Shown in pieces: positions 26,971-45,255 of a DNA stretch of 64,000 nucleotides. Numbering within the stretch: the first letter of the stretch is position 1; every line of letters begins with the position of its first letter. This DNA comes from Gemmatimonadota bacterium (GTDB taxonomy: Bacteria > Gemmatimonadota > Gemmatimonadetes > Longimicrobiales > Gaopeijiaceae). Both the position numbers and the translations under genes were made by a program. Location of the stretch: positions 310,001 through 374,000 of the forward strand of contig JAJEBW010000018.1 in NCBI GenBank assembly GCA_022822325.1, written 5' to 3'. Below the pieces are notes generated by a model. That model was not told where the DNA came from. It made no database searches and worked only from the letters and a program-made list of their open reading frames with translations.

Positions 26971-28860
26971 CTACGAGATGATCCTCTGGCCCTCGACCAG
27001 CTTCACGATCCAGAGGCCGGAGTTGAGATCGGAGGTAAAGATATGGCCTTTATGGATTTGCGCGCCCCAGGTCATCCCCCAGTTGGGGACGGTCGAGGCG
27101 CCGTCGATCGTCTTGAGGATCGCGATTTCGCGGCCCTGGCGGTAGAGATCGCCGCGCAGCTCGCCCGAGATGTCGACGACCCGCAGCCCCGCCTGGTAGT
27201 AGCCGATGTAGAGGCGGTCGCCCTCGACCCAGATGTTGTGCGCCCCGGCCTCGGGAACCTCGTAGCGCGCCACCTCGCGGGGATTCTCGGGATCCTCCAT
27301 GTCGAGCACATGAATGTACCCGCGGGCTTCGATCGGAGCGTCGGCGTCCCAGTCGTCGGGGAAGATCTCGTCGCCCACGAAGAGGTACCGTCCGGCGCGC
27401 CAGGCGGTGTGCGTGTTTCCGACGGGATAGCTGAGGCGCGAGACGAAGGCCGGTTCGGTGGGGGTTCCCCCGTGGGTGCCCGCGCCCACATCGAGCATGA
27501 CCACGCCGTCGTCCCAGTAGGAGAGGTAGGCGTAGCCCTCCTGGACGATCACGTCGTGCAGCGATTTGCCGGCGTGCGGCGGCAGCCCCCAGCGTCCGAC
27601 CTCGTCGGGGTTGGCCGGGTCGGAGACGTCGATGATGTGAATGTCGCTGGTGCCGTTGTGGACGGCGTAGACCAGGTCGCCCTCGATCCAGACGTTGTGG
27701 ACGCCGCCGGGGACGGTGCGCCGGTACTCGGAGAGGATGGCGGGGTGCGCGGGATCGGAGAGGTCGAGGACGACGATGCCGTTGCGGCGGTCGGAGGCGC
27801 CCTCGCGGGTGAGGATTCCGATGCGGCTGCCGGGGTGAATCTTGACGTCGTTGATGCGCCGGGCGTCGAGCTGGACGGAGTCGGTGAGGAAGGGGGCGGA
27901 GGGATCGGTGACGTCCCAGGCCTTCATCCAGTCGTGCATGTAGGTTCCGACATAGGCGTAGTCGCGTCCGTCGACGCCCTCGAAAACCCAGGTGTCGCCG
28001 GAGTGATGGTCGGCTGCGGCGCCGCGCCCGACCCGCACCAGTTCGGCCTCCTCGATCCGGGGGGCGACCTCGACCGAGCCGGTCACGGCCCTGCCCTCGC
28101 CGTAGATTGCGGTGACGCGGTAGCTGCCCGGTTCCTCGGCCACGAAGACGCCCTGGGAGCCCTCGGCCTCGATCTGGGCTCCGGCGCCCCCGACGCTCCA
28201 CTCGGGATAGAGGGCGGCGGCGCCGACCGCCTCGAAGCGGATGACGTCGCCGGTGCGGGCGCGGGCGGTTGCGGGCTCCAGGGCGACCTGGCCGGGGTCG
28301 CCGGCGCGGACCGCGAGGGGGACGATGGCGAGAGCCTCTCCCGATTGCACGGAGATGCCGACCTGTCCGGGCGCGCGCGCATGCACCCGTCCGGACCCGT
28401 CCACCCCGGCGACCGTCTCGTCGCTGGAGGAGAAGGAGAGCGCGGGCGCGGCCACCACTCCCCCGCCCTGGTCGGTGGCCACCACGAGAAGCGGCGCGCT
28501 CGTTCCGGCCACCAGCGCCGCGGCGGGCAGCGAGGCCTCCAGCGCGGCGACCGGCAGGGCGTTCACGATCACGGTGGCGAAGCTCATCACATTCCCGGAG
28601 CGGGCCGCGATCCTCCCCTCCCCCGGCGCCACCGCGGTGACCGTTCCATCCGGGGCGATCTGCACGACCTCCGGCGTGAGGGCGAGCCAGCGCAACGGCG
28701 CCTCCTCGAGGACGGTTCCGGCGTCGTCGAGGACCGTTGCGGCCGCGGCGGCCGATTCGCCGGCCTCCAGCGTGAAGCGCGCGGGCTCGATCTCGATGCG
28801 GTCGGGGGCGGCCTGCGCCTGTGCGGCGGCGAGGGCGATCAGGAAGGCGCCTGTGGTCAT
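26971..28860 (-). CDS. Secreted protein with Ig-like (BIG2) domains and LVIVD beta-propeller repeats
   Basis: 629 residues. A signal peptide of about 17 residues is followed by two or three bacterial Ig-like domains (about residues 18-190; ATVIVNALPVAALEAS, PDGTVTAVAPGEG, SGRVHARAPGQ) and a further beta domain to about residue 275. LVIVD-type propeller repeats then fill the rest (YAYVGTYMHDWMKAWDVTDPSAP, NGIVVLDLSDPAHPAIL, DIHIIDVSDPANPDEVG, GYIHVLDMEDPENPREVARY, AGLRVVDISGELRG). His-rich spots such as GAHNIWVEGD and TVPGGVHNVWIEGD recur. The ATG at 28860 has a good GGAGGA site. Probably exported or surface-bound and binding in nature; function unknown. It lies 37 bases after the VOC gene and may share its promoter. 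Confidence 0.85.
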   Translation of the reverse strand: MTTGAFLIALAAAQAQAAPDRIEIEPARFTLEAGESAAAAATVLDDAGTVLEEAPLRWLALTPEVVQIAPDGTVTAVAPGEGRIAARSGNVMSFATVIVNALPVAALEASLPAAALVAGTSAPLLVVATDQGGGVVAAPALSFSSSDETVAGVDGSGRVHARAPGQVGISVQSGEALAIVPLAVRAGDPGQVALEPATARARTGDVIRFEAVGAAALYPEWSVGGAGAQIEAEGSQGVFVAEEPGSYRVTAIYGEGRAVTGSVEVAPRIEEAELVRVGRGAAADHHSGDTWVFEGVDGRDYAYVGTYMHDWMKAWDVTDPSAPFLTDSVQLDARRINDVKIHPGSRIGILTREGASDRRNGIVVLDLSDPAHPAILSEYRRTVPGGVHNVWIEGDLVYAVHNGTSDIHIIDVSDPANPDEVGRWGLPPHAGKSLHDVIVQEGYAYLSYWDDGVVMLDVGAGTHGGTPTEPAFVSRLSYPVGNTHTAWRAGRYLFVGDEIFPDDWDADAPIEARGYIHVLDMEDPENPREVARYEVPEAGAHNIWVEGDRLYIGYYQAGLRVVDISGELRGDLYRQGREIAILKTIDGASTVPNWGMTWGAQIHKGHIFTSDLNSGLWIVKLVEGQRIIS

Positions 28861-29675: not shown

Positions 29676-29705
29676 ATAATGCGCAAGCCTGATCTTGCAT
29701 GTCAA
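29676..29705 (-). promoter_or_regulatory. Sigma-70-type promoter for the ArsR/VOC operon
   Basis: On the minus strand, TTGACA (29700-29705, full consensus) and CATTAT (29676-29681, four of six) are 18 bases apart. Transcription would start near 29669, placing the palindrome at 29643-29660 in the early leader, a repressing position. On the plus strand the same bases give CATAAT (29675-29680) facing cobT, with a weak TTCGCT 18 bases upstream. Confidence 0.55.
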
Positions 29706-30826
29706 GTGGCGCCCGGAATGGGGCACATCCATTCGTGAGCGGATCCGCCGCATTGCTGGAGGACGCGATCGGTCGCGCGGCCGCCCTCCCGCCGGGCGAT
29801 CCCGCCGCCGTCCAGGCCCACCTCGACGCGCTGGCCAAGCCGCCGGGAAGCCTGGGCCGCCTGGAGAAGGTCGCGCTGCAGGTGGGCTGCGTGCTGGGCG
29901 ATCCGCCGCCCTCTCTCGACGGCGCGGTGGTGTTCGTCTTCGCGGCGGATCATGGGGTGGCGGCGCGGGGGGTGTCGGCGTATCCGGCCGAGGTGACGGC
30001 GCAGATGTGCGCGAACTTCGCTGGTGGCGGGGCGGCGATCAATGTGCTGACGCGTGCCTGCGGCGCCGAAGTGCGGGTGGTCGACGTGGGGGTCGCGGCG
30101 GATGTCGCCGGGCTGGAGGGGATTGAGAGCCGGAAGGTCCGCGCGGGGACGGAGGATCTGTCCGTGCGGCCCGCGATGACGGCGCGCGAGGTCGTGGACG
30201 CGCTGGGGGTGGGGGTGGGGGTGGCGGGGGACGCGGAGGCGTGGCTGGTGGGGGTGGGCGAGATGGGGATCGGGAACACCACGGCGGCGGCGGCGGTGAC
30301 GGCGTGCCTGGCCGGGGTTGCGGTGCGCGAGGTCGTGGGCCGGGGCACGGGGATCGACGATCGCGGACTGGCCCGCAAGCGGGAGGTGGCGGAGGGGGCG
30401 GTCGCGCGGGTGGCGCGGCGCGAAGAGGCGCGGGACGACGCTCTGGAGGTGCTGCGGGAGGTGGGCGGGCTCGAGATCGCCGCGATGGCGGGCGCGATGA
30501 TCGGGGCGGCGGCTCGGGGCGCGCTCGTGCTGGTGGACGGGTTCATCTCGTCGGCCGCGGCGCTGGCGGCCTGTCGCCTGTGCCCTGCCCTGCCACGGTT
30601 CCTCGTCGCTTCGCACCGCTCGACCGAACCCGGACACGCGGTCGCGCTCGATGCGCTCGGCCTCGCTCCCCTGCTGGACCTCGAGATGAGGCTGGGCGAG
30701 GGGACCGGGTGCGCGCTCGCCATCCCGATCGTGCGGGCGGCCGGGGCGCTGCTCGGGGAGATGGCGACCTTCGAGTCGGCGGGGATCTCCGGGCCGAGCG
30801 ACGACGGGGGCGGAGCCGCTTCATGA
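29699..30826 (+). CDS. cobT: Nicotinate-nucleotide--dimethylbenzimidazole phosphoribosyltransferase
   Basis: Forms alpha-ribazole 5'-phosphate from dimethylbenzimidazole and nicotinate mononucleotide, the lower-ligand activation step of cobalamin assembly. 375 residues. Motifs: LAKPPGSLGRLE near residue 46, VVFVFAADHGVAARGVSAYP, VGEMGIGNTTAAAAV, the segment GRGTGIDDRGL, and the catalytic Glu region LEMRLGEGTGCALA. An alternative GTG at 29735 would trim 12 non-conserved residues. It opens a four-gene operon (cobT-cobU-cobS-cobC) joined by 4-bp overlaps. The promoter overlaps the ArsR-type regulatory region; no cobalamin riboswitch was seen here. Confidence 0.96.
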   Translation: MSSGARNGAHPFVSGSAALLEDAIGRAAALPPGDPAAVQAHLDALAKPPGSLGRLEKVALQVGCVLGDPPPSLDGAVVFVFAADHGVAARGVSAYPAEVTAQMCANFAGGGAAINVLTRACGAEVRVVDVGVAADVAGLEGIESRKVRAGTEDLSVRPAMTAREVVDALGVGVGVAGDAEAWLVGVGEMGIGNTTAAAAVTACLAGVAVREVVGRGTGIDDRGLARKREVAEGAVARVARREEARDDALEVLREVGGLEIAAMAGAMIGAAARGALVLVDGFISSAAALAACRLCPALPRFLVASHRSTEPGHAVALDALGLAPLLDLEMRLGEGTGCALAIPIVRAAGALLGEMATFESAGISGPSDDGGGAAS

Positions 30827-31359
30827 TGGAGCTTGTCGTGGTGACGGGGGGCGTGCGCTCCGGGAAAAGCCGGTGGGCGCAGGACGAGGCGCTGGCGCGC
30901 GGGGGCGACGACGTTACGGTGGTCGCGACCGCGGAGGCCGTTGACGAGGAGATGCGCGACAGGATCGAGGCGCACCGGCGCAACCGGCCCGCGGGGTGGC
31001 GCACGATCGATGCGCCGGAGCGGGCGGGGGAGGCGATCCTGGCCGCCGCGACGGACACGGTGGTGCTGGACTGCGTGACGGTGCTGACCGGGATGGCGAT
31101 CGGGCGCGCGGGCGCGAAGAGCGAGGCGGCCGCGCTGGGCGCAATGGCCGCCGAAATCGACGGGATCCTCGAAGCGCGCGAGGCGCGGCGCGGCGGGCTG
31201 CTCATCGTCGTGACCAACGAGGTGGGGTGGAGCGTGCATCCGCCCACCGCGCTGGGACGCTGGTACCAGGACGGGCTGGGAATCGCCAATCAGCGTCTGG
31301 CCGCCGCCGCGGACCAGGTGGTGCTCATGGTCTCCGGGCTGGAGACGCGGCTGAAGTGA
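30823..31359 (+). CDS. cobU: Adenosylcobinamide kinase / adenosylcobinamide-phosphate guanylyltransferase
   Basis: Bifunctional enzyme that phosphorylates adenosylcobinamide and adds GMP to give AdoCbi-GDP. 178 residues. The P-loop is GGVRSGKSRWA near residues 9-19, and the family-specific TNEVGWSVHPPTALGRWYQDGLG with NQRLAAAADQVVLMVSG is intact. ATG codons at 30823 and 30826 are both possible; the first overlaps the cobT stop. Its product meets the CobT product at CobS, encoded next. Confidence 0.96.
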   Translation: MMELVVVTGGVRSGKSRWAQDEALARGGDDVTVVATAEAVDEEMRDRIEAHRRNRPAGWRTIDAPERAGEAILAAATDTVVLDCVTVLTGMAIGRAGAKSEAAALGAMAAEIDGILEAREARRGGLLIVVTNEVGWSVHPPTALGRWYQDGLGIANQRLAAAADQVVLMVSGLETRLK

Positions 31360-32132
31360 GGACCGCTCTCCGGGGCGCGCGCGCCGCCTTCGTCTTCATG
31401 ACCCGCGTACCGGTGGGCGGCTTCCCCTATTCGGCCAATGAGTGGCGGTGGGCTTCGGCGTGGTTCCCCATGGTTGGGCTGGTGATTGGAGGATTGTGCG
31501 CGGTCGTCTGGGGGCTGGCGGCGGCGCTGGGGCCGTGGGTCGCCGGGGTCACCGTACTCGTCCTGTCGATTCTGCTGACCGGCGCCTTCCACGAAGACGG
31601 ACTCGCCGACACTGCCGATGCGCTGGGCGGGGCCTGCGACCGCGAGAAGATCTTCGTCATTCTCAAGGACTCGCGGGTGGGCGCCTTCGGGGCGCTCGCG
31701 TTGGCGATCTCCGTCGCGTTCCGTCTGGTGCTTCTCGCGCAACTGGGGGGAATCGCCCCCACTGCCCTGCTCCTCGCGCACTGCCTCGCGCGCGTCGGCC
31801 CCGTCTGGCTGATGGTTGCCATGCCGTACGTGAGCGATGCGGCGGCGAAGAGCCGTCAGGTGACGCGGGCAGGGGTGCCCCAGGGTGCGCTCGCGACCGC
31901 GATCGGCGTGGCCGCGGCCGGGGTTCCGGTGGTGGCGGGAGGCACGATCAGCGCAACCGGCGCGCTTGCCGCATTCGCGGCGATGTTGTTGGCCACCGTC
32001 CTGTGCGGCTGGCGGTTCCGCGCGCGGGCGGGTGGCGTGACCGGCGACTTCCTGGGCGCCGCGGAGCAGGTGAACGAGATTGCGATTCTCTTCGCGATTC
32101 TCGTGGTGGAGCTGGCAGGGACCGCGCCGTGA
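31356..32132 (+). CDS. cobS: Adenosylcobinamide-GDP ribazoletransferase (cobalamin synthase)
   Basis: Integral membrane enzyme that joins AdoCbi-GDP and alpha-ribazole (phosphate). 258 residues from a GTG overlapping the cobU stop. The N terminus FMTRVPVGGFPYSANEW and the conserved acidic loop GAFHEDGLADTADALGG (metal/substrate site) identify the family; DSRVGAFGALAL and the late GGVTGDFLGAAEQVNEI also match. About six hydrophobic helices are visible. Its stop overlaps the cobC start, so all four nucleotide-loop genes are coupled. Confidence 0.95.
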   Translation: MRTALRGARAAFVFMTRVPVGGFPYSANEWRWASAWFPMVGLVIGGLCAVVWGLAAALGPWVAGVTVLVLSILLTGAFHEDGLADTADALGGACDREKIFVILKDSRVGAFGALALAISVAFRLVLLAQLGGIAPTALLLAHCLARVGPVWLMVAMPYVSDAAAKSRQVTRAGVPQGALATAIGVAAAGVPVVAGGTISATGALAAFAAMLLATVLCGWRFRARAGGVTGDFLGAAEQVNEIAILFAILVVELAGTAP

Positions 32133-32671
32133 TCCGCCTCCTCGCCATCCGGCACGCCCCCGTTACCGTAGAGCGCGTCTTCTACGGGCAAACCGACGTG
32201 CCCACGACCCTGAACGCCTCCGAGGCTGCCGCGCGCATCGAGCACACCGTGGCCGAATTCGCTCCGGGCGCCATCTGGTCGTCCGACGCAGTGCGCTGCC
32301 GGGGGCCCGCTGCATTGCTCTCCGAGCGGCTCGGCGTCCCGCACCGCGTCGACGAGCGGGTCCGCGAGATGTCCTACGGCGATTGGGAGGGACGCGCCTG
32401 GGACGATGTGCCCCGCGCCGAAGTCGACGAGTGGATGGACGACTGGCAGATTCGATACCCCCCGGGGGGCGAGAGTGTCGCCGAATTCACCGAGAGGGTC
32501 GCCGCGTGGTGGCGGGAGCTCGAGCCCGGCAACCACTTCCTCATGGCGCACGCGGGCGTGGTGCACTGTCTCGACGTGGTCGCTGGCGGGCTGGCCTGGG
32601 AGCGGACCATCGAGAACCGGCTCGACTTTCTGAAGGCCAAACGGTTCACGCGGGCGACGTCGCCGCGCTGA
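32129..32671 (+). CDS. cobC: Alpha-ribazole phosphatase (histidine phosphatase family)
   Basis: Predicted to remove the 5'-phosphate from alpha-ribazole phosphate or adenosylcobalamin 5'-phosphate. 180 residues from GTG. The phosphohistidine motif reads IRHAPV (RHA rather than RHG, seen in a subset of the family), followed by YGQTDVPT, SSDAVRCRGPAA, VREMSYGDWEG and the second histidine in MAHAGVVHCL. It is the last gene of the operon and converges on a minus-strand lipoprotein gene, with a strong hairpin between. Confidence 0.88.
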   Translation: MIRLLAIRHAPVTVERVFYGQTDVPTTLNASEAAARIEHTVAEFAPGAIWSSDAVRCRGPAALLSERLGVPHRVDERVREMSYGDWEGRAWDDVPRAEVDEWMDDWQIRYPPGGESVAEFTERVAAWWRELEPGNHFLMAHAGVVHCLDVVAGGLAWERTIENRLDFLKAKRFTRATSPR

Positions 32672-32700
32672 GGCCATATCCCCATTTCGCACTCCATTCC

Positions 32701-32728
32701 CCCCATCCGCTCGCGGAAGCGGACGGGG
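32701..32728. terminator. Hairpin between convergent cobC and propeller-lipoprotein genes
   Basis: CCCC-A-TCCGCT, loop CGCGGA, AGCGGA-C-GGGG: a ten-pair stem with one mismatch in the 130-base gap between two convergent stops. It can serve both strands. There is no T-tract, so rho-independent strength is uncertain. Confidence 0.45.
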
Positions 32729-32801
32729 CATCGGGATCGCAGGGATCGGAGACTTCCCGCGACGAAGATCCCACCCGACCCGTGACGGACAGCGACGCTC
32801 G

Positions 32802-34199
32802 CTACCGGAAACTCCGAATCTCCAGCCCCACCGGCCCCGACCCCGAATCGATGCTGTCAGTCAGCGCAAACGTCTCGGGCGCGTAGCGGAAGATCCGGGG
32901 CGGCAACCCCTGACGCGTGCTGCCAAAAAAGGTCTGGTAGAGCGAGCCGTCCGCCGCCGTGTGCGCGCCAAATGCGCCGCGGCAGCCACCGCCGTCCAGG
33001 GGCGCGCAGATGGGGTCGGATCCGTCTCGCAGGAATGCCTTCGTGGCCGTGTTCCAGGCCACGGTGCCCGCGAAGAAGGCCGACGCGAAGAGCGTGCCGC
33101 CCTGCGAGACATGCACGTGTCCCGAACCCGCGGGGAATCCTCCTACCACCTCGACCCTCGCAAGCGAAGCGGGATCGATGATCGCCAGAGTCGACGGCGT
33201 GACGTAGTCGCCGGTGTTCATCACATACAGCATTCCGTCCGGGCCCACGGCCCCGAACTGCGGATTGGCGCCCCCGGTCTCGATTTCGGCGGTCACGGTC
33301 ATGGTGCGCGGGTCGAGCGAGGTGACCACGCCGTCGCCGTTCGGTGCGAAGTTGTCGTCCAGGTTCGCCGAGATCACGAAGGCCAGCGAATCGGAGAACG
33401 GCACGATGCCGGTGGGAAACTCGGTCACCGAGACCAGGTCGCCGATGGAGTTGCCGGCCTGTCCGAGCATGAACCTGCCCACCTGGTCCGTCTGCTGGTT
33501 GGCCGCGAGTACCGTGCCGGCGCTCACGAACGCCGAGCCGGTTGCGTTTCCGGATTCGAAGAGGTAGAAGCCGTCGATCTGCTGGCTGCGGAGGTCGATG
33601 ACGGCAACCGAAGCCGCGTTGCCGAGGGGAACGACCCCGGTCTCGCCGCGGATGGCGATGCCGGTGGGGGTTACCGCGCTCGACGCACCCAGGGCGATGT
33701 CGCGGTTCTCGCCCGGATCGCCCAGTTGGAAGAGGCGAATCGCGTTCCCGCTCGAGTTCACCACGATTCCGATCTGCGGCTCGCTCACCGTCCCGTCGAT
33801 GAACGCCAGCTCCTCGACCAGCAGCGAAACGGAGGCGGCGCCGGTGTTTCCGTCGGAATCCGTGGCCGTGAGGGTGATCGTGTGGACCCCGACCGAGGGC
33901 GACGCCACCTCCAGCGACGACCCGGTGCCGAGCGCGCCGTCGATCGAACTCGACCAGGCCAGCGCGGCGTTTCCGAGCATGCCGTCCTGGGGATCGGTGG
34001 CGGCGCCGGCGAGGCTGACGGGCGTTCCCTCGTGGATGGCGAGCCCGGAAGCCGGCGAGGTGATGACGGCGGTGGGGGCGGAAGGTCCGGCGGGCTGGGT
34101 GGGTCCGGTGGGCGCGTCTTCGCCGCATGCGGCGATCGCGAGCAGGGTCAGGAGGATGATGGGGCGAGGCGTGGCGTTGGTCATGAGAGTTTCGTCCAT
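32802..34199 (-). CDS. Beta-propeller lipoprotein downstream of BtuB (BtuG-like candidate)
   Basis: 465 residues from the ATG at 34199 (a second ATG at 34184 is equally good). A lipoprotein signal ends at Cys25 (LAIAAC). A PKD/Ig-like domain spans about residues 45-125 (GLAIHEGTPVSLAGAATDPQDG, VGVHTITLTATDSDGNTG), and a YncE-like beta-propeller of about seven weak blades fills the rest (AVTPTGIAIRGETGVVPLG, SVAVIDLRSQQIDGFYLF, FGAVGPDGMLYVMNTGD, TLAIIDPASLARVEVV). It starts 40 bases after the btuB stop on the same strand, so it is probably on the cobalamin-riboswitch transcript. In Bacteroides a propeller lipoprotein next to BtuB (BtuG) captures corrinoids at the surface. The same job is inferred here from layout and fold, not from residue-level homology. 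Confidence 0.72.
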   Translation of the reverse strand: MDETLMTNATPRPIILLTLLAIAACGEDAPTGPTQPAGPSAPTAVITSPASGLAIHEGTPVSLAGAATDPQDGMLGNAALAWSSSIDGALGTGSSLEVASPSVGVHTITLTATDSDGNTGAASVSLLVEELAFIDGTVSEPQIGIVVNSSGNAIRLFQLGDPGENRDIALGASSAVTPTGIAIRGETGVVPLGNAASVAVIDLRSQQIDGFYLFESGNATGSAFVSAGTVLAANQQTDQVGRFMLGQAGNSIGDLVSVTEFPTGIVPFSDSLAFVISANLDDNFAPNGDGVVTSLDPRTMTVTAEIETGGANPQFGAVGPDGMLYVMNTGDYVTPSTLAIIDPASLARVEVVGGFPAGSGHVHVSQGGTLFASAFFAGTVAWNTATKAFLRDGSDPICAPLDGGGCRGAFGAHTAADGSLYQTFFGSTRQGLPPRIFRYAPETFALTDSIDSGSGPVGLEIRSFR

Positions 34200-34239
34200 G
34201 GTTGCAGGCAATGACGAGGGAGGGAGAAAGGGGATGCGC

Positions 34240-36447
34240 TCATCGTCCGGCTCCGATGCGGATTCGCGTCGACCAGCCACGGCCCGGCAGCGGATAGTCG
34301 ACGAGCAGCGCGGCGCGTTCGTCGAGGAGGTTGCTGAGGGCCAGATCGAACCGCCCGTCGCGTCCGGCCAGTTCGAATGGGACGGAGACCCCGGCGTCGA
34401 AGAGGGTGTAGGCGGCAAGCCCGTTCAGCGGAGAACCGGGTACGGTGCGGCGCTCGCCGACGTGCGTGGCCGAGGGGCTCAGCGTGATCCCGGCCGGCAA
34501 TCCGATGACGAGGGCCAGGTCGGCGGTGAAGCGCGGCCGGTAGGCGACCTGGCCTTCGAGTGCCGCGCCGGTGTATTCGACCTCGGACCAGGCGGCGGTG
34601 GCTGTGATGCTGTGGGTATGTCCGAGCGCGGCCAGGTCGGTCGTGGCGCCGATTTCGAGTCCGCGGCGCGCGACGTCGTAGTTGTCCGGGCTCCACACGA
34701 AGCGGTGGTCCGGGAACCAGAGGATCATGTCGTCGAGGTCGGCGCGGTAGGCGGTCGCGCGCAGTTCGCCGTTGGCGGGGCCGAGCGACCACCGGTGGGC
34801 GGCGGTCGCCGCGAGTTCGCCGCGAATGCGCTCTGGCGCGAGGTCGGGATTGGGCTCGGCGAGGACCCCTTCCTGGAAGAAGAGGTCGCCGAGTCCGGGG
34901 GGCGAGAAGCCGCGGCCCCACCGGAGGTCGAGGGTGAACCCGGCGCGGGTCAGCGTGGCGTCGACGGCGGGCGAGGCGGTCGCCCCGTCCACGAGTTCGT
35001 GCCGGTCGGCGCGGAGCGCGGCGCCGAGATCGAGATGGACGCCGCGCCCCAGCTCCCAGCCGCGCCTGGCGCGCGCCCACATCCCGAGTTCGTCGAGGCT
35101 GACGTCGGGCGAGCTCAGGACATTCGACTCGACGTCGAGGCGGGCGGCGTGGAGACCGAACCGCAGGGCCAGGACATCCACGCGGGGCAGCGGTGCCGGA
35201 CCTCCGCTCCACCAGCCTTCGAGCGCGAGTTCCGCACGGCGCACCCGGGTGCGGGTATCGTAGGCGCGGCCGAAGGGGGGCGCCGGATCGGCGTATTCGG
35301 CGCGTTGCCACTGGATCGAGGTGCGGGCCGAGCCCCCGAGCCGCGACTCGGGCGATTCACCGTCCGATTCGATCCCGGCGCTCATCCCGTACCGGCGGTG
35401 GCGCTGTTGGGCGGTGAGCGAGGGCTGCGCGATCGTACCGGGGCTCCCGCGTTCGATGTCGCTGAGGTGAACGCGCACCGATGTGTTCGCGCCTCCACGC
35501 CGCGCGATGCGGAAGTCGCCGCCCGCATGCGAGAAAGCGGAGTTCTCGCGGGTCGTCTCGCCACCGCCCCGGAAATCGGGGACATCGTAGGTGAACGCGC
35601 CGTTCGACCGCCGCCAGCGCGCGCCGCCCGACAGCGACCAGGCGTTCCCGAACCCGCGCGACCCGGTGACCGCCGTCTCCGCCATGGACCAGGCGCCCAT
35701 CCCGGCGGTAACGGCGCCGGTGGCCACTGTCGGGCCCGGGCTCTCCAGAAGGACCACGCCGCCGAGGGCCTGCGGACCGTATCGGGCCGACTGCGCGCCC
35801 GGAATCACGACGATGCGGGAAATGGACTCGAGGTCCACCGTACTCAGATCCGCCACGCCGGTGAGCGGAGAGTTGAGCGGCGTTCCGTCGAGGAGCACGA
35901 GGACCTGGTCGCCGCCCGCGCCGCGCAGTTGCAGAACCGCCGGCGCACCCGGCCCGCCCTGCCTCACGACCGTCGCGCCCGCGACGCGTTCGAGCGCAGC
36001 CGGGAGATCCGTTACCCCGGGCGGCAGGCTCGCCGTCTCCAACACGGTCGCGGAGGATCCCCCCTGGCGGGTTGCAGCAGCCTGCACATCCAGCCCCGCG
36101 ATCCGAACCGGGGCCGGGTCGAGCACGACGCGGGCACGCGTCAGACGCCCGTTCACGGCCTCGACCTCGATCACGGCCTCCGCGAAGCCGAGCGCCGAGA
36201 TCACGAGTTCGTGCCGTCCCGGCGACAGGCCCCGCAGGACGGCAATGCCCCGCGAGTCGGTCGTCGCAGCGAGCCCCGCGTCGCGGACGGCGACGGAGGC
36301 AGCCGGAACGGCGATGGTGCCGATGTCCCCCGGCGCCTGCACCGTCACCTGCACCGTCGCGGCAACCTGGGCATCCAGCAGGCGCACCGGCATGGCCGGC
36401 AAGACGGTGGCGGCGGCCACCACGGCCATCACGAACTCGGTCTTCAC
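34240..36447 (-). CDS. btuB: TonB-dependent outer membrane receptor for cobalamin/corrinoids
   Basis: 735 residues from a GTG at 36447 giving a signal peptide with an early Lys (KTEFVMAVVAAATVLPAMP). An ATG at 36429 is the alternative. Domain order: a carboxypeptidase-regulatory-like domain (about 30-100; TDSRGIAVLRGLSPGRHELVISALGF), a plug (about 110-225; LPAALERVAGATVVRQGG, LQLRGAGGDQVLVLLDGTPLN, ISRIVVIPGAQSARYGPQALGGVV) and a 22-strand-type barrel ending LALSNLLDERAALLVDYP and GWSTRIRIG. A cobalamin riboswitch lies 98 bases upstream on the same strand, which fixes the substrate class. The signature LLDGTPLNSP and the neighbouring propeller lipoprotein support corrinoid uptake. Confidence 0.92.
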   Translation of the reverse strand: MKTEFVMAVVAAATVLPAMPVRLLDAQVAATVQVTVQAPGDIGTIAVPAASVAVRDAGLAATTDSRGIAVLRGLSPGRHELVISALGFAEAVIEVEAVNGRLTRARVVLDPAPVRIAGLDVQAAATRQGGSSATVLETASLPPGVTDLPAALERVAGATVVRQGGPGAPAVLQLRGAGGDQVLVLLDGTPLNSPLTGVADLSTVDLESISRIVVIPGAQSARYGPQALGGVVLLESPGPTVATGAVTAGMGAWSMAETAVTGSRGFGNAWSLSGGARWRRSNGAFTYDVPDFRGGGETTRENSAFSHAGGDFRIARRGGANTSVRVHLSDIERGSPGTIAQPSLTAQQRHRRYGMSAGIESDGESPESRLGGSARTSIQWQRAEYADPAPPFGRAYDTRTRVRRAELALEGWWSGGPAPLPRVDVLALRFGLHAARLDVESNVLSSPDVSLDELGMWARARRGWELGRGVHLDLGAALRADRHELVDGATASPAVDATLTRAGFTLDLRWGRGFSPPGLGDLFFQEGVLAEPNPDLAPERIRGELAATAAHRWSLGPANGELRATAYRADLDDMILWFPDHRFVWSPDNYDVARRGLEIGATTDLAALGHTHSITATAAWSEVEYTGAALEGQVAYRPRFTADLALVIGLPAGITLSPSATHVGERRTVPGSPLNGLAAYTLFDAGVSVPFELAGRDGRFDLALSNLLDERAALLVDYPLPGRGWSTRIRIGAGR

Positions 36448-36451
36448 TCGA

Positions 36452-36472
36452 CCCCGTCTTCTCCGGACGGGG
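36452..36472 (-). promoter_or_regulatory. Hairpin placing the btuB ribosome-binding site in its loop
   Basis: In the btuB leader, CCCCGTC and GACGGGG pair with the loop CGGAGAA, four bases before the GTG start. The only good Shine-Dalgarno-like run (GGAG) is in that loop. It lies at the end of the riboswitch leader, where an expression platform is expected, so translational control is a fair inference. Confidence 0.45.
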
Positions 36473-36545
36473 AGAAGCACGGCCGAACGTCCACGCCAAG
36501 GCGAGAACGCGGGACCACGCCCTCCCTCGAGGGTGTTGATCCAGT

Positions 36546-36721
36546 GACGGAGGAGAGGTCTCCTGGCTTGGGGACGGTTCCGCTCGCCTTCCCAGGCATC
36601 GCTGCCCAGTGGCTTCGTGAACGGAACCACGAGGGATCGACTCCACAGTCCAATCCCACAGTCCCTTTACAGTGGCGGGGCCGCGCCGGACTTTCACCGG
36701 ACTTCCGAGTGCCCCTCCGTC
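36546..36721 (-). promoter_or_regulatory. Cobalamin riboswitch upstream of btuB
   Basis: The leader is bounded by a perfect 8-bp P1 stem (GACGGAGG at its 5' side with CCTCCGTC at its 3' side). Inside, in order on the minus strand, are GGTGAAAGTCCGGCGCGG, the B12-box-like core CCCCGCCACTGTAA, GCCACTGGG, GGGAAGGCGAGCGG and AGCCAGGAGACC, all hallmark cobalamin aptamer segments in the right order. Binding of cobalamin should lower btuB and lipoprotein expression. The 5' boundary lies only 15 bases from the divergent pduX start, so the promoter of this transcript must be inside the pduX coding region. Confidence 0.92.
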
Positions 36722-36735
36722 TGTGAACTGCGAAT

Positions 36736-37746
36736 ATGGATACAGGAAGCGCAGGCGGCGCGCAAGGCGCATGGACAGCCCCGGCCACCTGCGGCGAACT
36801 CGTGCAGGGCTTCCACCGGGGCCGATGGCTGCAGATCGCGGCCCCCGTCGAGCTGTACCGTGCCGCCCGCGCCGACGTCGTGTCATTTGAACGGGCCGCC
36901 CCCGGCGCCTGCGGTCGCTACGCCAAGGTGCAACTGGGTCTCGGCATGCTTCTGCGCGCCCTGCCTGGCCGAGCCCTGCGTGCGACGCTCGGGGGCGACG
37001 AGATCCCGCGGGGGGTCGGATTCGGCAGCAGCACGGCCGATCTGGGCGCGGCGTTGCGCGCCGGGGCGGAGGCCCTTGATCTGCGGGAGCCGTGTGACGC
37101 CGTGGTCCGCGCGGCGCTCCAGGTCGAGCCGACCGGCGGTTCCCTCCTTCCGGGGCTCGTGCTGTTCGATCACCGGGCGGGCACGATCCGGGAGCCGCTC
37201 GGCCCTCCTCCACCCCTGAACATCCTCTGCATCCGACTGCAGGGGGAGGTGGACACCGTCGCATTCAACCGCCGTCTCCCGGCACGTCTCCCGGAGCATG
37301 CTCTGAGGGCCTGGGACGGCGCATTCCGGTTGTGCGCCGAAGGGATTGCGTGCGGGGATCTGCGGAAGGTCGGCGATGCGTCGACGGCGAGCGCAGAGGC
37401 GGCCCACCATTTGGGATGCCCGCCGACTCCGCCCGGATTGGCAATGTGCGCTCGCGAAACCAGGTCGATCGGCGTCGCGCGGGCTCATTCGGGAACGGTA
37501 TGGGGGCTGCTCTACCCGGCGACCGAAACGCCGGCGCCGGAGGAGGTCGCGGACATGTTGAGCCACGCGGGCGTCATGACGGTGCCTCCGCTGCCGTCAC
37601 GTTCCCGCGCCATGGTTGTCTTGCTGAAGCTGATCGGTGGAGGCTGTCGGGTTGCCCCGTCCCTGGAGATGCCGCTATCGTGTTCCGTTGACGCGAGGGG
37701 GCCACCGGAAGTTCGGTCCGAAGCCGACGCGGCCCCGCCACTGTAG
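36736..37746 (+). CDS. pduX: L-threonine kinase, GHMP family (cobalamin aminopropanol branch)
   Basis: Phosphorylates L-threonine to L-threonine-O-3-phosphate, which CobD decarboxylates to aminopropanol phosphate. 336 residues. The N-terminal motif APATCGELVQGF (residues 15-26) is diagnostic of PduX. The GHMP ATP loop is RGVGFGSSTADLGAA (from residue 92). A segment QVEPTGGSLLPGLVLFDHRAG and the late GVARAHSGTVWGLLY complete the fold. No Shine-Dalgarno site precedes the ATG at 36736. The last 17 codons, and the stop TAG itself (37744-37746), lie inside the next cobalamin riboswitch. It is flanked by two riboswitches and stands upstream of btuF and cobD. Confidence 0.88.
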   Translation: MDTGSAGGAQGAWTAPATCGELVQGFHRGRWLQIAAPVELYRAARADVVSFERAAPGACGRYAKVQLGLGMLLRALPGRALRATLGGDEIPRGVGFGSSTADLGAALRAGAEALDLREPCDAVVRAALQVEPTGGSLLPGLVLFDHRAGTIREPLGPPPPLNILCIRLQGEVDTVAFNRRLPARLPEHALRAWDGAFRLCAEGIACGDLRKVGDASTASAEAAHHLGCPPTPPGLAMCARETRSIGVARAHSGTVWGLLYPATETPAPEEVADMLSHAGVMTVPPLPSRSRAMVVLLKLIGGGCRVAPSLEMPLSCSVDARGPPEVRSEADAAPPL

Positions 37747-37857
37747 GAGGTCCGGATCCCTGCCCAAGCGGATCCGGCACGACTCGCTCGATTGCCACTG
37801 GGTTGTCCCGGGAAGGCGAGCGCAGTCGCCTCGAGCCAGGAGACGCGGTTCCCTCGC
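37693..37857 (+). promoter_or_regulatory. Cobalamin riboswitch upstream of btuF operon, overlapping pduX
   Basis: P1 is GCGAGGG (37693-37699) with CCCTCGC (37851-37857). Between them are GGTCCGAAGCCGACGCGG, the core CCCCGCCACTGTAG (37734-37747), GCCACTGGG, CCGGGAAGGCGAGCG and GAGCCAGGAGAC, in the same order and nearly the same letters as the btuB riboswitch. The pduX stop codon falls in the conserved core. The 3' strand of P1 (CCCTC) can also pair with the btuF ribosome-binding site GAGGGAGGGG (37877-37886), which would give translational control. Regulates btuFCD-cbiB-cobD-cobO-cobQ. Confidence 0.9.
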
Positions 37858-37891
37858 CCACTTTGCACCATCCTTCGAGGGAGGGGACCCG

Positions 37892-38830
37892 GTGTACACG
37901 GCGGACCATGCAAGAACGGGCACGGCGACGCGTCCCCGTCCTTCGTCCACGCTGCCGATCGCCGCTCTGCTGGTCCCGATCCTCTTCGCAGCGTGTGCCC
38001 CGGCCGGGAGTCCGGAGGCGCCCGCGGTTTCCGTCGTCGATGACACCGGACGCACCGTTGCGCTCGCCGCACCGGCCCGCCGGGTCTTTTCGGTGATTCC
38101 CTCGCTGACCGAGTCGATCACCGCTCTCGATCCCGGTGTCCTCATCGCGCGCACCCGATTCGACAGGGCCGCCCAACTCGCTCACCTTCCTTCGCTGGGC
38201 GGAACCATTCAGCCGAACCTCGAGGCGCTGGCCGGCCTCGAGCCCGATCTTGTGATCACGTGGGCCGACGGATCCCAGCGCTCGGTCGGGGAGCGGGTCG
38301 ACGCGCTCGGCATTCCCGTCTACAGGGCCGACGTGCAGACGATCGCCGACGTGCGCAGCCACCTTCGCCGCCTGGGCACGCTGCTGGGCCGCACGGTACG
38401 GGCCGCCGCTGTGGTGGACTCGCTTGACATCGCGCTCGAGAGCGTGGCGGCGGCGGTGCACGGACGCGAGCGCGTCGACGTCTACTACTCCGTCTGGCAC
38501 GACCCGCCGCAGACGACCGGGCCCGGGACCTTCATCGACGAGGTGATCGAGCACGCCGGCGGCCGCAACATCTTCGCGGACGCCTCGCGCTCGTGGCCCC
38601 GGGTGTCCATCGAGGCGATCCTGCGGCGCGACCCCGACGCCCTCGTCATCGCTCGACACGCGCCGGACGCTCCCGGTGCGCCGTGGCTTGAGGCGCCGGG
38701 TTGGCGGGAGCTGCGCGCGGTCCGCACCGGCCGCTACCTCATGGTCGACGGCGACCTGTTCAATCGTCCGGGTCCCCGCGTGGCCGAGGCGGCACGTGAA
38801 ATGGCCCGCTTCCTGCACGGCGCGCGTTGA
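37892..38830 (+). CDS. btuF: Corrinoid ABC transporter substrate-binding lipoprotein
   Basis: Captures cobalamin or other corrinoids in the periplasm and delivers them to BtuCD. 312 residues from the GTG at 37892, which has a strong GAGGGAGGGG site. A hydrophobic segment (residues 20-34) ends at Cys35 (ILFAAC), so it is probably lipid-anchored. The class III binding-protein fold starts VVDDTGRTVALAAPARRVFSVIPSLTE and continues GGTIQPNLEALAGLEPDLVITW, YYSVWHDPPQTTGPGTFIDEVI and GGRNIFAD. The cobalamin riboswitch directly upstream fixes the ligand class. Its stop overlaps the TTG of btuC. Confidence 0.92.
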   Translation: MYTADHARTGTATRPRPSSTLPIAALLVPILFAACAPAGSPEAPAVSVVDDTGRTVALAAPARRVFSVIPSLTESITALDPGVLIARTRFDRAAQLAHLPSLGGTIQPNLEALAGLEPDLVITWADGSQRSVGERVDALGIPVYRADVQTIADVRSHLRRLGTLLGRTVRAAAVVDSLDIALESVAAAVHGRERVDVYYSVWHDPPQTTGPGTFIDEVIEHAGGRNIFADASRSWPRVSIEAILRRDPDALVIARHAPDAPGAPWLEAPGWRELRAVRTGRYLMVDGDLFNRPGPRVAEAAREMARFLHGAR

Positions 38831-39822
38831 CGCACACCCCCCGCCGGCTCGCCCTCCTCGCGCTGGGCGTCGTGGCCGCGCTCGGCCTCAGCGTGTCCTT
38901 CGGCGCCTCGGGAATCGGCCCCGGCGACCTCTGGCGCACCCTCTCGGGCAGCGGCGACCCCACCACGCAGGCGATCCTGTTTCAGTTGCGGCTGCCCCGC
39001 GCCGCACTGGCCGCGCTGGTTGGCGGCGCGCTCGGCCTGAGCGGCTGCACCTTTCAGGCACTCCTTCGCAACCCGCTCGCCGAGCCGTACGTGCTGGGCG
39101 TCTCGGGCGGAGCCGCCGTCGGCGCGGTGGCGGTCGTGGTGACCGGCATCGGCGTGGTCCTTCCCTGGACGCTCCCCCTGGGTGCCTTCCTGGGCGCGCT
39201 GGCGGCGATGGCCCTGGTGCTCGAAGTCGCGCGGCGCGCTTCGCCCGGACGCATGGACACGCGCATTCTGATCCTTTCCGGCGTGATCATCGGCGCCTTC
39301 TTCAACGCGGCGATCCTGCTCCTGCTCTCGATGGCCGATGTGGAATCGTTCCGCTCGGCGATCTTCTGGATGATGGGGAACCTCTCCGGCGCCGACTGGG
39401 GATCGACCGGGCTTCTGGCCCTGCTGCTCGTACCCGGGGCGCTGGCGGTGCTTTCACTGGCTCGTGCCTTCAACCTGCTTTCGCGAGGCGAGGAGGTCGC
39501 CTTCTACCTCGGCGCCTCGGTGCAGCGCGTGAAGCTCACCGCCTACCTGGCCGCGTCGCTGATGGTGGCCGCGGCGGTCGCGGCGGGCGGCGTGATCGGC
39601 TTCGTCGGGCTGATCGTTCCGCACGCCGTGCGGCTTGCGTGGGGGAACGACCACCGGCTGCTTCTCCCCGCCTCGTTCCTGGCCGGAACCGCCTTTCTCC
39701 TGCTTGCCGACACGGTGGCCCGGCTGGTGGTAGCGCCGGCCGAGCTGCCGACCGGGGTGGTCACCGCCGTCGCAGGGGTCCCGTTCTTCGTGGCGCTGCT
39801 GCTGCGGGGGGGACGGCGGTGA
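38827..39822 (+). CDS. btuC: Corrinoid ABC transporter permease (FecCD family)
   Basis: 331 residues from a TTG overlapping the btuF stop; about ten membrane helices. Family motifs: RLPRAALAALVGGALGLSGCTFQALLRNPLAEPYVLGVSGGAA, described here by its parts (RLPR at about residue 56, NPLAEP, LGVSGGAA), GEEVAFYLGASV and GGVIGFVGLIVPHAVRL, which is the coupling region to the ATPase. It forms the BtuC2D2 importer with the next gene. Placement behind the cobalamin riboswitch distinguishes it from siderophore permeases of the same family. Confidence 0.93.
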   Translation: MTHTPRRLALLALGVVAALGLSVSFGASGIGPGDLWRTLSGSGDPTTQAILFQLRLPRAALAALVGGALGLSGCTFQALLRNPLAEPYVLGVSGGAAVGAVAVVVTGIGVVLPWTLPLGAFLGALAAMALVLEVARRASPGRMDTRILILSGVIIGAFFNAAILLLLSMADVESFRSAIFWMMGNLSGADWGSTGLLALLLVPGALAVLSLARAFNLLSRGEEVAFYLGASVQRVKLTAYLAASLMVAAAVAAGGVIGFVGLIVPHAVRLAWGNDHRLLLPASFLAGTAFLLLADTVARLVVAPAELPTGVVTAVAGVPFFVALLLRGGRR

Positions 39823-40652
39823 GGGATATCGCACATTTGCGCGACTGGCGGCCGACGCTGCGGTGCCGGGACCTGAGCTTTACCCATCGACGCGCGGAGG
39901 AGGCCGCCGTGCGAGGCGTCTCGCTGTCGATCTCCCCGGGAACGCTGCTGGCGGTCGTGGGGCCCAATGGCGCCGGCAAGACCACGCTGATGAAGCTCCT
40001 TTCGGGGTCGCTGCCTCCGCAGGAAGGAGACGTCACCCTGAACGACCGTCCACTGTCCGGCCTGGCCGATCGGGAACGCGCCCTTGCAATCGCCGTGGTG
40101 CCCCAGTCCGAGTCTTCCCCCTTCCCGGTTACGGTACGGGAGATGGTGGGGATGGGACGGTATGCGCACCTCGGCCCGTGGGAGCGATCCGGCGCCAGGG
40201 ACCGGACGGTCGTGGACCATGCGATGGCGCGATGCGCGGTCGCCGAGTTCGCGGACCGACAGCTGAGCGAACTCTCCGGCGGCGAACGACAGCGGGCGCG
40301 GATCGCCCGCGCGCTCGCCCAGGAAGCGCCCGTCCTCCTCCTCGACGAGCCCACCGCCGGACTCGATCTTCGCTACCGCATGGAGCTCTTCCACCTGTTG
40401 CGCCAACTCCGGGCAGCCGGGCTGGGTGTGCTCGTCATCACCCACGACCTCAACCTCGCCGCCCGGTTCGCCGACCGGCTGATGTTGCTCGACCGTGGTC
40501 GCGCGCTCGCCCGGGGCACACCGGACGAGGTGCTGGCGCGCGCGTCGCTGGAGGCGGTCTACCAATGGCCGCTCAGGGTGGTGGCGCACCCCGGACCCGG
40601 GAGCGACACTGGCGCCCCTCAGACCGTCCCGCTCAGGAGGGACGACCCGTGA
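39819..40652 (+). CDS. btuD: Corrinoid ABC transporter ATP-binding protein
   Basis: 277 residues from a GTG in the btuC stop. Walker A is GPNGAGKTT (residues 48-56), the Q-loop AIAVVPQSES, signature LSGGERQRARIARALAQ, Walker B VLLLDEPTAGLDL and the switch histidine in ITHDLNLAARFAD. This is the FepC/BtuD type that energises uptake through BtuC. The C terminus (after about residue 250) is short and non-conserved. The next gene, cbiB, starts in its stop, so import and the aminopropanol branch are translationally linked. Confidence 0.94.
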   Translation: MRDIAHLRDWRPTLRCRDLSFTHRRAEEAAVRGVSLSISPGTLLAVVGPNGAGKTTLMKLLSGSLPPQEGDVTLNDRPLSGLADRERALAIAVVPQSESSPFPVTVREMVGMGRYAHLGPWERSGARDRTVVDHAMARCAVAEFADRQLSELSGGERQRARIARALAQEAPVLLLDEPTAGLDLRYRMELFHLLRQLRAAGLGVLVITHDLNLAARFADRLMLLDRGRALARGTPDEVLARASLEAVYQWPLRVVAHPGPGSDTGAPQTVPLRRDDP

Positions 40653-41644
40653 GCGCGGCGGAGCCGACCACCCACATTCGGGGCCTGGGACTCGCGGGCG
40701 CCCTGATTCTCGACCGGGTTCTGGGCCAGCCCCGCGCTCATCCGGTCCGCGCGATCGGGGCGCTGCTCGGGGGTGCTGGCAGGATGCGGCTCAGCCGGCA
40801 ACCGGTGGGAAGCCTGATCGAAGGGGCGGCGGCGCTGGCGGTGGTGGCCGGGGTTGCCGCCACGGCCGTGCGCGTCCTGTCGCCGCGAGCCCGCCGTTCA
40901 ACCCCAAACTCCTACCGGTCCCCGCTGCCCGCCACGCTTATGGCGGCGGGGCGCGAAGCCTTCCTCCTGCATCCATCGCTCGCTCTCGAGGCGCTTGCCG
41001 AAGCGGGGACAGGGGTGGGCGCGGCGCTGAGGACGGGCGACCTCGACCGGGCACGGCGGCGCCTGGCGCGGGACCTGGTCAGCCGCGACACCAGCGCCCT
41101 CGACGCACCCCACTGTGCCTCCGCGGCGATCGAGTCGATGGCCGAGAACCTCTGTGACTCGGTGGTGGCGCCGGCCTGCGCCTACCTGGCGACCGGACTG
41201 CCCGGCGCATGGGTTTATCGGGTCGTCAATACCGCCGACGCGATGTTCGGCTACCGTACGCCCGACCTGATCTGGTACGGGAAGCCGGCGGCGCGGGCCG
41301 ATGACGTCCTCAACTTCGTACCGGCGCGGCTGGCGGCCGTACTGATCGCGATGGCCGCGGCAGGCCAACCGCTCCACCGCGACCGCTCTCGTCCGCCGAT
41401 CGGCGCCCTCCTCCAACGCCTCCCGCGCGAGTCGGCGCGCGCCGCGGGGCCCAACGCCGGGTGGCCGATGGCAGCCGCCGCGCTCTTTCTCGGCGTCCGG
41501 CTCAGCAAGCCCGGCACCTACACCCTGAACGGCGCGGGTGCCCCGCCTGACACCCACGACATCGACGCTGCCGCCGCGCTGATCCGGCGTGCGGCCTGGC
41601 TGGGCGTGGGGCTGGTCTCCGCGGCGGAGGCTTGCCGCTCATGA
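40649..41644 (+). CDS. cbiB: Adenosylcobinamide-phosphate synthase
   Basis: Membrane enzyme that attaches aminopropanol (or its phosphate) to adenosylcobyric acid. 331 residues from GTG. Family motifs: ALILDRVLGQPRAHPVRAIG near the N terminus, ARRRLARDLVSRDTSALD, the core CASAAIESMAENLCDSVVAP and the segment RVVNTADAMFGYRTPDLIWYGKPAARADDVLNFVPARL (about residues 190-230, key residues DAMFGY and DDVLNF). It lies between the importer and cobD, whose start overlaps its stop. Also called cobD in the aerobic-pathway nomenclature. Confidence 0.95.
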   Translation: MSAAEPTTHIRGLGLAGALILDRVLGQPRAHPVRAIGALLGGAGRMRLSRQPVGSLIEGAAALAVVAGVAATAVRVLSPRARRSTPNSYRSPLPATLMAAGREAFLLHPSLALEALAEAGTGVGAALRTGDLDRARRRLARDLVSRDTSALDAPHCASAAIESMAENLCDSVVAPACAYLATGLPGAWVYRVVNTADAMFGYRTPDLIWYGKPAARADDVLNFVPARLAAVLIAMAAAGQPLHRDRSRPPIGALLQRLPRESARAAGPNAGWPMAAAALFLGVRLSKPGTYTLNGAGAPPDTHDIDAAAALIRRAAWLGVGLVSAAEACRS

Positions 41645-42780
41645 AGCACGTTGCCGCACCCCCGATGTGGCGTCCTCCGCGCGCCGACCCGCGCGTGGCT
41701 CAGGCGCCTCCGGAGTTCCATGGCGGCCCGGGGTACGAGGAGAACGGGAAGTACCCTCCGGTGACCGCCGATCTCAGCGCCAACATCAACCCGTACGTTC
41801 CGGACGAGGCGGTGCGGCAAGCGGTATCCGGTGCGCCGCTCGACGCCTATCCCGACCCCGTTGCGGGCAAGGCCCGTGCTCTGCTCGCCGGCGTCTGGGG
41901 AATGGACTCCGAGCGCATCCTGCTGGCGCCCGGAGCCTCCGAACTCATCTACCGGATCGCCCGCTGCTGGATCCGCCCCGGCAATCCGGTGGTGGTGTGC
42001 GGCCCCACCTTCGGCGAGTACCGCCGCGCCGTGCGCCTCCAGGGCGGCGAACCCCACGAGGTGAGCGGGACTGCGCCCGGCTTCGCGCTTCCGCTCGCAC
42101 GGTTCCTCGACCGGGTCGTCCGGCTCCGCCCGCCCCTCGCGTTCCTTTGCACACCCAACAATCCCACCGGCGAAGCGCTGTCCGACGCCAGCGTCGCCGA
42201 TCTGGCGCACTGGATACCCGCGGGGACACTGCTGGTGGTCGACGAGTCCTACCGCTCCTTCGCGGCAGGGCGCCTCGCGCCGCCCCATCTCCCCGGCGAC
42301 GACCGCGTCCTGCATCTGCGCTCCTTCACCAAGGACCTTGGCGTGCCCGGGCTGCGCCTTGCCGCCGCCATCGCGGCTCCGGCGATACTGGACCCCCTGA
42401 TCCGGGCCGCACCGCCCTGGTCCGTGTCCTCCGTAGCCCAGGCTGCCCTCTGCGCCGCGCTGGGCTCCCGCGCGCTCGCCCGCCTCGAGCACAGCCTCGC
42501 CCGCGTCGCGGCTCGGCGCGAGGCTCTTTCGGCGGCGGTGGCCCGGCGTGGATGGCAGCCGCGCCCCTCGGCCACCGGCTTCGTCCTGTCGGCGGTCCCC
42601 GCCGCCGCCGCCACCACCCATGCCCTGCGGCTCCGGGGCGTCCGCGTGCGCCACGCGGCCTCCTTCGGATTGCCCGGACACATTCGCGTCGCGGTCCGTC
42701 GCCGCGACGAAGAGGATCGCTTCCTCGCCGCCCTCGATGAAATCGCCGCACCCACAGCTATCGCAGGAGGACCCTCGTGA
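41641..42780 (+). CDS. cobD: Threonine-phosphate decarboxylase (PLP aminotransferase fold)
   Basis: 379 residues, fold-type I PLP enzyme close to histidinol-phosphate aminotransferase. PLP lysine is K231 (LRSFTKDLGVPGLRL); other motifs are LSANINP (substrate loop), PGASELIYRIAR, CTPNNPTG and DESYRSFA. In the cobalamin setting, directly after cbiB and with pduX upstream, it should decarboxylate L-threonine-O-3-phosphate to (R)-1-aminopropan-2-ol phosphate, the substrate of CbiB. The fold alone would also allow a HisC function, so the call depends on context. ATG at 41641 overlaps the cbiB stop. Confidence 0.9.
   Translation: MKHVAAPPMWRPPRADPRVAQAPPEFHGGPGYEENGKYPPVTADLSANINPYVPDEAVRQAVSGAPLDAYPDPVAGKARALLAGVWGMDSERILLAPGASELIYRIARCWIRPGNPVVVCGPTFGEYRRAVRLQGGEPHEVSGTAPGFALPLARFLDRVVRLRPPLAFLCTPNNPTGEALSDASVADLAHWIPAGTLLVVDESYRSFAAGRLAPPHLPGDDRVLHLRSFTKDLGVPGLRLAAAIAAPAILDPLIRAAPPWSVSSVAQAALCAALGSRALARLEHSLARVAARREALSAAVARRGWQPRPSATGFVLSAVPAAAATTHALRLRGVRVRHAASFGLPGHIRVAVRRRDEEDRFLAALDEIAAPTAIAGGPS

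Positions 42781-45181: not shown

Positions 45182-45255
<74 letters not shown>

Follow-up and report, generated by a model that had tools for sequence, protein, structure and literature searches.

The window analyzed here is a 64,000-nucleotide stretch from the genome of an uncultured Gemmatimonadota bacterium (3.48 Mb in 49 contigs, ~94% complete). It contains a cobalamin riboswitch, a TonB-dependent receptor gene and a lipoprotein gene in series, and the question raised by this locus is whether the two proteins form a corrinoid capture pair like BtuB-BtuG of Bacteroides. The accessible text of one study reports that BtuG homologues are confined to Bacteroidetes by BlastP (PMC6143338), and the available portions of another treat TonB-dependent transporters with a lipoprotein cap as an apparent peculiarity of Bacteroidetes (PMC10404256). 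No report of BtuG in Gemmatimonadota was found in the searched literature, with most subscription journals outside the search, and the accessible text of two studies that cover cobalamin and BtuB in Gemmatimonadota mentions the transporter alone.

Rfam analysis identified the riboswitch (RF00174; 36535-36733, minus strand) at 65.8 bits and E = 5e-14, above the gathering threshold of 31.5 bits. The aptamer lies on the btuB strand here and in all ten close relatives (L003-L012). The leader between aptamer and btuB start (36448-36534, minus strand) contains a CCCCGTC-loop-GACGGGG hairpin with a GGAG in or beside the loop. This hairpin is kept in 13 of 14 aligned leaders, the exception being L044, and the alignment of the 14 leaders contains no T-tract. 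The fold of 36400-36740 has an RNA z-score of -3.1. A switch between CUUCUCC:GGAGAAG and CCCCGUC:GACGGGG pairings was considered and rejected when the first pairing, inspected by eye, proved mismatched in L007-L009, L011 and L012. Given these mismatches and the near-constant second pairing, the claim drawn from the leader sequences is limited to a hairpin that probably controls translation.

The receptor gene (34240-36447, minus strand) starts at a GTG at 36447 or an ATG at 36429 and stops at 34240. The protein matches the TonB Plug domain in Pfam (E = 8e-19) and has an N-terminal CarboxypepD_reg extension. Among NCBIfam models it matches TIGR01779 (TonB-B12) best, with 94.1 bits against a cut-off of 599.7, and the receptor is therefore called BtuB-like and placed outside the curated equivalog. 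Its best PDB matches include E. coli BtuB chains, and it belongs with the BtuB-clade profile (A3).

The lipoprotein gene (32802-34199, minus strand) starts at an ATG at 34199 or 34184. The sequence-only reading had placed riboswitch, receptor and lipoprotein on one strand, with 40 bases between the two genes and the lipidated residue at Cys25. All of this holds: 40 bases separate the btuB stop from the first lipoprotein ATG, and the cysteine of the LAIAAC lipobox (codon 34127-34125) is residue 25 when counted from that ATG and residue 20 when counted from the second. Lipoboxes in the window and its relatives were called by consensus motif, read from the sequence. The segment between lipidated cysteine and propeller (33816-34124, minus strand; about residues 21-124 of P0001) is a PKD/Ig-like spacer. 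Its PKD and Big_7 matches are weak (E ~5e-4 to 1e-3, below the Pfam cut-offs), and the lipoprotein family profile matches a solved bacterial Ig domain at 2.4e-5. The remainder (32805-33815, minus strand) is a predicted acidic beta-propeller with a net charge of -17 and repeat strands, picked by eye, at residues 149, 193, 235, 287, 333, 374 and 431. An Ig-like domain followed by a seven-repeat propeller agrees with the domain order first proposed. The propeller matches TIGR03866 weakly in NCBIfam, as the family as a whole does TIGR03866 and TIGR02276, and it gave no match to the YncE model PF21783 at E up to 1; a single member of 37 in the family matches PF21783, at E = 0.058. No close paralogue was found in its own genome, where the sole other match has an E of 6.6e-4 and covers residues 6-198. 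AlphaFold2 models from 11 sequences reached a mean pLDDT of 39.4 for the whole lipoprotein and 30.3 for the propeller alone, and no statement about the fold is based on either.

The pair is flanked by cobamide genes. On one side, cobT, cobU, cobS and alpha-ribazole phosphatase (29699-32671, plus strand; NCBIfam) cover late cobamide assembly and salvage. On the other, a second cobalamin riboswitch (37707-37844, plus strand; 56.4 bits) lies upstream of btuF-btuC-btuD, and the segment at 37637-44980 (plus strand; NCBIfam/Pfam) encodes btuF, btuC, btuD, cbiB, a cobD-type aminotransferase and cobQ. Between the two riboswitches is a GHMP-kinase-like protein (36736-37746, plus strand) that matches PF00288 as its sole model and is possibly a PduX-type L-threonine kinase. 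A second Ig-plus-propeller protein is encoded at 26971-28860 (minus strand), with Big_2 and LVIVD repeats and a choice-of-anchor B match below the curated cut-off. The accessible text of two studies describes Palauibacterales and the phylum as lacking corrin-ring synthesis and retaining btuB (PMC10469786, PMC10581226). One TP_methylase and three B12-binding proteins score over cut-off in the window's own genome, which is consistent with this B12-salvage lifestyle. RpoB was not found in this assembly (G000), and arguments from absence in a 94%-complete assembly are therefore weak.

Recurrence of the pair was surveyed in 395 genomes of the phylum. A profile of 11 lipoprotein sequences (A1) matched 121 genomes at E<=1e-5, some through the PKD domain alone. 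Stretches were taken around 40 A1 matches, 20 weaker propeller matches and 20 BtuB matches and joined with L003-L012 and the window; the weaker A1 matches were included in part. Re-scanning with profiles of 53 propellers and 29 receptors, with full length set at >=260 profile positions, yielded 85 full-length propellers in 83 loci after exclusion of the partial L057, L100 and L110. A btuB-type receptor lies directly before 71 of the 85 propellers, and RF00174 is found upstream on the same strand for 70. Removing the 14 rows from loci chosen by BtuB leaves 57 of 71 behind a receptor and 60 of 71 with a riboswitch. The riboswitch-linked loci are arranged as riboswitch-btuB-propeller (33 loci), riboswitch-btuFCD-btuB-propeller (28), riboswitch-btuFCD-propeller with no btuB found ahead (5) and other orders (4), where the btuFCD label denotes a same-strand upstream BtuD match; among the 28, the stretches contain BtuC in 28 and BtuF in 27, counted irrespective of strand. 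Fifteen propellers had no riboswitch, nine of them with less than 3.3 kb of upstream contig and six with more than 4.2 kb; one of the riboswitch searches used filters that drop weak matches. The survey, which the sequence-only reading had proposed, thus finds the pair conserved together, downstream of a cobalamin riboswitch, across numerous genera of Gemmatimonadota.

The converse search started from the receptor. Its profile matches 82 of the 395 genomes at E<=1e-60, and among the best 63 matches (E<=1.3e-110) a propeller adjoins 58, three of which (G046, G149 and G335) were judged from contig coordinates alone. The five receptors without an adjoining propeller lie at a contig edge (G381, G049, G160), at an assembly gap (G158) or in a broken locus (G058). 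Thirteen of the 19 weaker receptor matches were inspected; 12 have a propeller match alongside, which is partial in two cases and divergent in several, and the remaining one (L103) is at a contig edge. YncE/YVTN seven-bladed propellers share the fold superfamily, and eight generic Gemmatimonadota members (L082, L084-L089, L091) served as controls. They match the family profile patchily at 67-95 bits and PF21783/PF10282 at E ~2e-18 to 5e-26, whereas the btuB-linked family barely matches PF21783. No btuB-type receptor was found near these eight in flanks of up to 1.5 kb. In the one-contig genome at L058 (G058:C1:1245000-1256500), the 3' half of btuB lies, by eye, beside an IS110-like transposase, and a lipoprotein fragment ~5 kb from the btuB remnant stops after the PKD domain. 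At L050 (2060-3043) and L052 (3256-4239), a further, divergent propeller lipoprotein lies behind the btuB-propeller pair. A search of a plasmid collection with the L064 propeller returned one weak match.

The propeller lipoprotein very probably serves corrinoid uptake. The receptor's 94 of 600 bits on the TonB-B12 model would also suit a cargo other than a corrinoid, such as another tetrapyrrole or a metal chelate, with the riboswitch a mere link to B12 status. The window locus, however, lies between cobT-U-S and btuFCD-cbiB-cobQ and carries two cobalamin riboswitches, and a riboswitch precedes the btuFCD-btuB-propeller order in the 28 loci counted above; a non-corrinoid cargo is very improbable. 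The explanation that we favor for the whole locus, and consider likely, is a riboswitch-controlled corrinoid capture pair in which an outward propeller lid hands ligand to BtuB. When cobalamin is scarce, the riboswitch would permit production of BtuB and the lipoprotein. The lipoprotein would be anchored in the outer membrane by its lipid, facing outward, and the face of its acidic, seven-bladed propeller would bind corrinoids. It would rest on or beside BtuB as a lid and pass the ligand to the TonB-driven receptor, after which BtuF-BtuCD, under the second riboswitch, and then CobT, CobU, CobS, CbiB and CobQ would import and complete the corrinoid.

The capture step is modeled on Bacteroides. 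The accessible text of the BtuB2G2 study describes a propeller that caps the receptor with its corrinoid site towards the barrel, and a negatively charged face as the corrinoid-binding surface of BtuG2 (PMC10404256). By analogy with BtuB2G2, the Gemmatimonadota lipoprotein would catch corrinoid outside the cell and pass it to BtuB. The net charge of the propeller is negative in 49 of 53 family members (mean -15); seven of the eight generic YncE controls are positively charged, though non-native N-termini are included in that count. Asp or Glu occurs at positions 2-5 from the cysteine in 48 of 48 mature proteins, a count that excludes three proteins without a regex-matched lipobox and was compared with no background set. 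Acidic residues right after the lipidated cysteine resemble the surface-export signal of Bacteroidetes.

The side of the membrane is the point at which a second placement of the lipoprotein has to be weighed. Lipidation alone does not fix the membrane side, and in at least seven loci (L074, L120, L121, L122, L125, L126 and L128) the propeller gene directly follows btuD with no btuB detected before it by the receptor profile; btuF- and btuC-like genes are present in all seven stretches. These btuFCD-propeller operons therefore leave room for a periplasm-facing lipoprotein that relays to BtuF the corrinoid received from BtuB, or modifies it in the periplasm, instead of capping the receptor from outside. 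We regard this placement as unlikely given that 71 of 85 propellers sit directly behind a btuB-type receptor, that the best-ranked solved relatives are surface-exposed BtuG proteins and that the acidic residues after the cysteine resemble the surface-export signal. An outward-facing, BtuG-like lid is the fairly likely state of the lipoprotein.

Kinship with BtuG was examined by profile searches in both directions. Searching 177,635 PDB sequences with the 53-propeller profile placed BtuG-type chains at ranks 2-4 and 6-14 (E = 3e-12 to 3e-7) and E. coli YncE below them (E = 2e-6), with a generic YVTN surface-layer protein as the top match. The class includes 8okv, 8puj and 8p97_B, which pair with BtuB or match BtuG1, and the grouping is partly inferred. 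A 37-sequence propeller profile likewise ranked BtuG1 at 2-4. The BtuG1 alignment covers profile positions 45-309 in register and runs colinearly through most of the propeller. When the eight generic YncE proteins were made into a control profile, smaller than the 53-sequence one, E. coli YncE came fifth (1e-23) and BtuG1 took ranks 18, 19 and 21. The reverse search with a 199-residue BtuG1 fragment found 66 places in 63 of the 395 genomes, of which 10 are btuB-linked by coordinates; eight of the best 10 places are generic YncE-type proteins, and the window lipoprotein is absent from the matches. DUF5074, the Pfam family that recognizes BtuG1, matches 11 of 37 propeller-family members weakly, and as proof of kinship it was rejected because the generic YncE controls also match.

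The forward profiles thus favor a specific link to BtuG that the reverse search does not confirm. Since the reverse BtuG1 search prefers generic propellers, descent of the family from BtuG is plausible but unproven. Independent recruitment of a YncE/YVTN-type propeller, doing the same job by convergence and having no closer kinship to BtuG, would account for the reverse search (10 of 66 places btuB-linked), the unspecific DUF5074 match and the generic YVTN protein at the top of the PDB list. Against it stand a forward profile that puts BtuG-type chains above YncE when the control profile does not, the colinear BtuG1 alignment, and a spacer-less mature length of ~326-345 residues, near that of most BtuG-type PDB chains (321-374; 8blw_B, with an extra domain, has 663). 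Convergence is accordingly possible but rather doubtful. The periplasmic and convergent readings are partly compatible with the favored capture pair, and the probabilities given to the three therefore need not total one. The sequence-only reading had proposed that this lineage has an equivalent of BtuG. Recurrence and the PDB ranking support the term equivalent; ortholog stays unproven, as the BtuG1 fragment matches generic YncE-like propellers more often.

The earlier reading had also assigned a PKD/Ig spacer to the lipoprotein. The spacer is present in the window group but is not general. Of the 85 propeller proteins, 14 carry it, those of the window, L003-L012 and L042-L044; in 35 others that were measured the propeller begins 7-19 residues past the lipidated cysteine, and no spacer was found in 27 further ones with a recognized lipobox. 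We therefore regard it as added locally to a pair that is itself widespread. Our guess is that the PKD domain acts as a longer hinge or as a spacer that lifts the propeller.

Several known systems resemble the pair in part. E. coli BtuB-BtuFCD also combines a B12 receptor with a binding protein and an ABC transporter, and we know of no surface lipoprotein partner in that system. The Bacteroides pairs BtuB1G1, B2G2 and B3G3 share the cobalamin riboswitch, BtuB, an adjoining lipoprotein and, as far as the repeat strands predict, a seven-repeat propeller of ~330 residues, and the window family's profile resembles BtuG-type PDB chains. The present pair differs in belonging to Gemmatimonadota, in a pairwise similarity so low that no clean reciprocal match results and in the occurrence of the propeller gene after btuFCD without a preceding btuB. 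In the window group a PKD spacer sits at the N-terminus; BtuG1, by contrast, has an extra H domain according to the accessible text (PMC10404256). XusA-XusB of Bacteroides, in the available part of its description (PMC13142918), likewise places a propeller lipoprotein as a lid on a TonB-dependent transporter, but the XusB ligand is an iron-siderophore and the protein belongs to DUF4374; no XusB chain was recognized among the PDB matches of the 53-propeller profile. We read the pair as a BtuG-like system, with a spacer variant, outside Bacteroidota in a new phylum; its function is probable and its mechanism unproven. Recurrence in Gemmatimonadota suggests that a capture arrangement thought special to Bacteroides is more widespread. 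The pair also points to possible competition for corrinoids where these bacteria live, and its natural variants (no spacer, PKD spacer, tandem propellers, btuFCD-linked) offer a means of testing lid opening and ligand hand-over.

The nearest named relatives of the locus, ten MAG contigs, share 79-88% protein identity with it and include Candidatus Palauibacter. One of them (L012) carries the pair at 79% identity on a contig labeled Acidobacteriota, possibly a misassigned or mixed bin. The available text describes the Palauibacter order from marine samples, and the habitats of the phylum include sponges and corals (PMC10469786). The window genome belongs to family f1, genus g1, and the Palauibacter genomes to f7, g73. 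RpoB of g1 (G128) is 68.5-69.8% identical to that of five g73 genomes and 72.2-73.9% identical to that of four same-family genera. The order is reversed for the propeller (81.6-82.8% to g73 versus 30-66% to same-family genera) and for BtuB (76.7-77.9% versus 36-45%). At the DNA level, positions 29,764-44,945 of the window match the Palauibacter genus (G054) at ~80-83%, a span from cobT to cobQ, and the flanks inspected contain no other match longer than 150 bases. The match to G042 stops at 40,652. The window and G128 of its own genus have 29,735-44,955 in common, interrupted by an insertion, and show no match in the left flank inspected. The simplest and likely reading of these alignments is that a 15-kb B12-salvage island was exchanged whole between lineages, with mixed MAG bins as a caveat.

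With somewhat less than even confidence, we propose that BtuB with a propeller lid is general in B12-importing Gemmatimonadota, possibly predating the split of the FCB phyla, and that in the Palauibacter-like lineages the PKD-hinged form travels on the 15-kb island exchanged between families. If true, lipoprotein-capped B12 receptors are no Bacteroidota invention.

The right edge of the island lies ~240 bases from a tRNA-Arg(CCT) at 45182. Stretches L151-L156 yielded no tRNA. Two genomes with 99.3% identical RpoB, G059 and G128 (L005 and L004), nevertheless have propellers that differ by ~15% and BtuB proteins that differ by ~23%, which suggests that the pair has changed unusually fast or been replaced.
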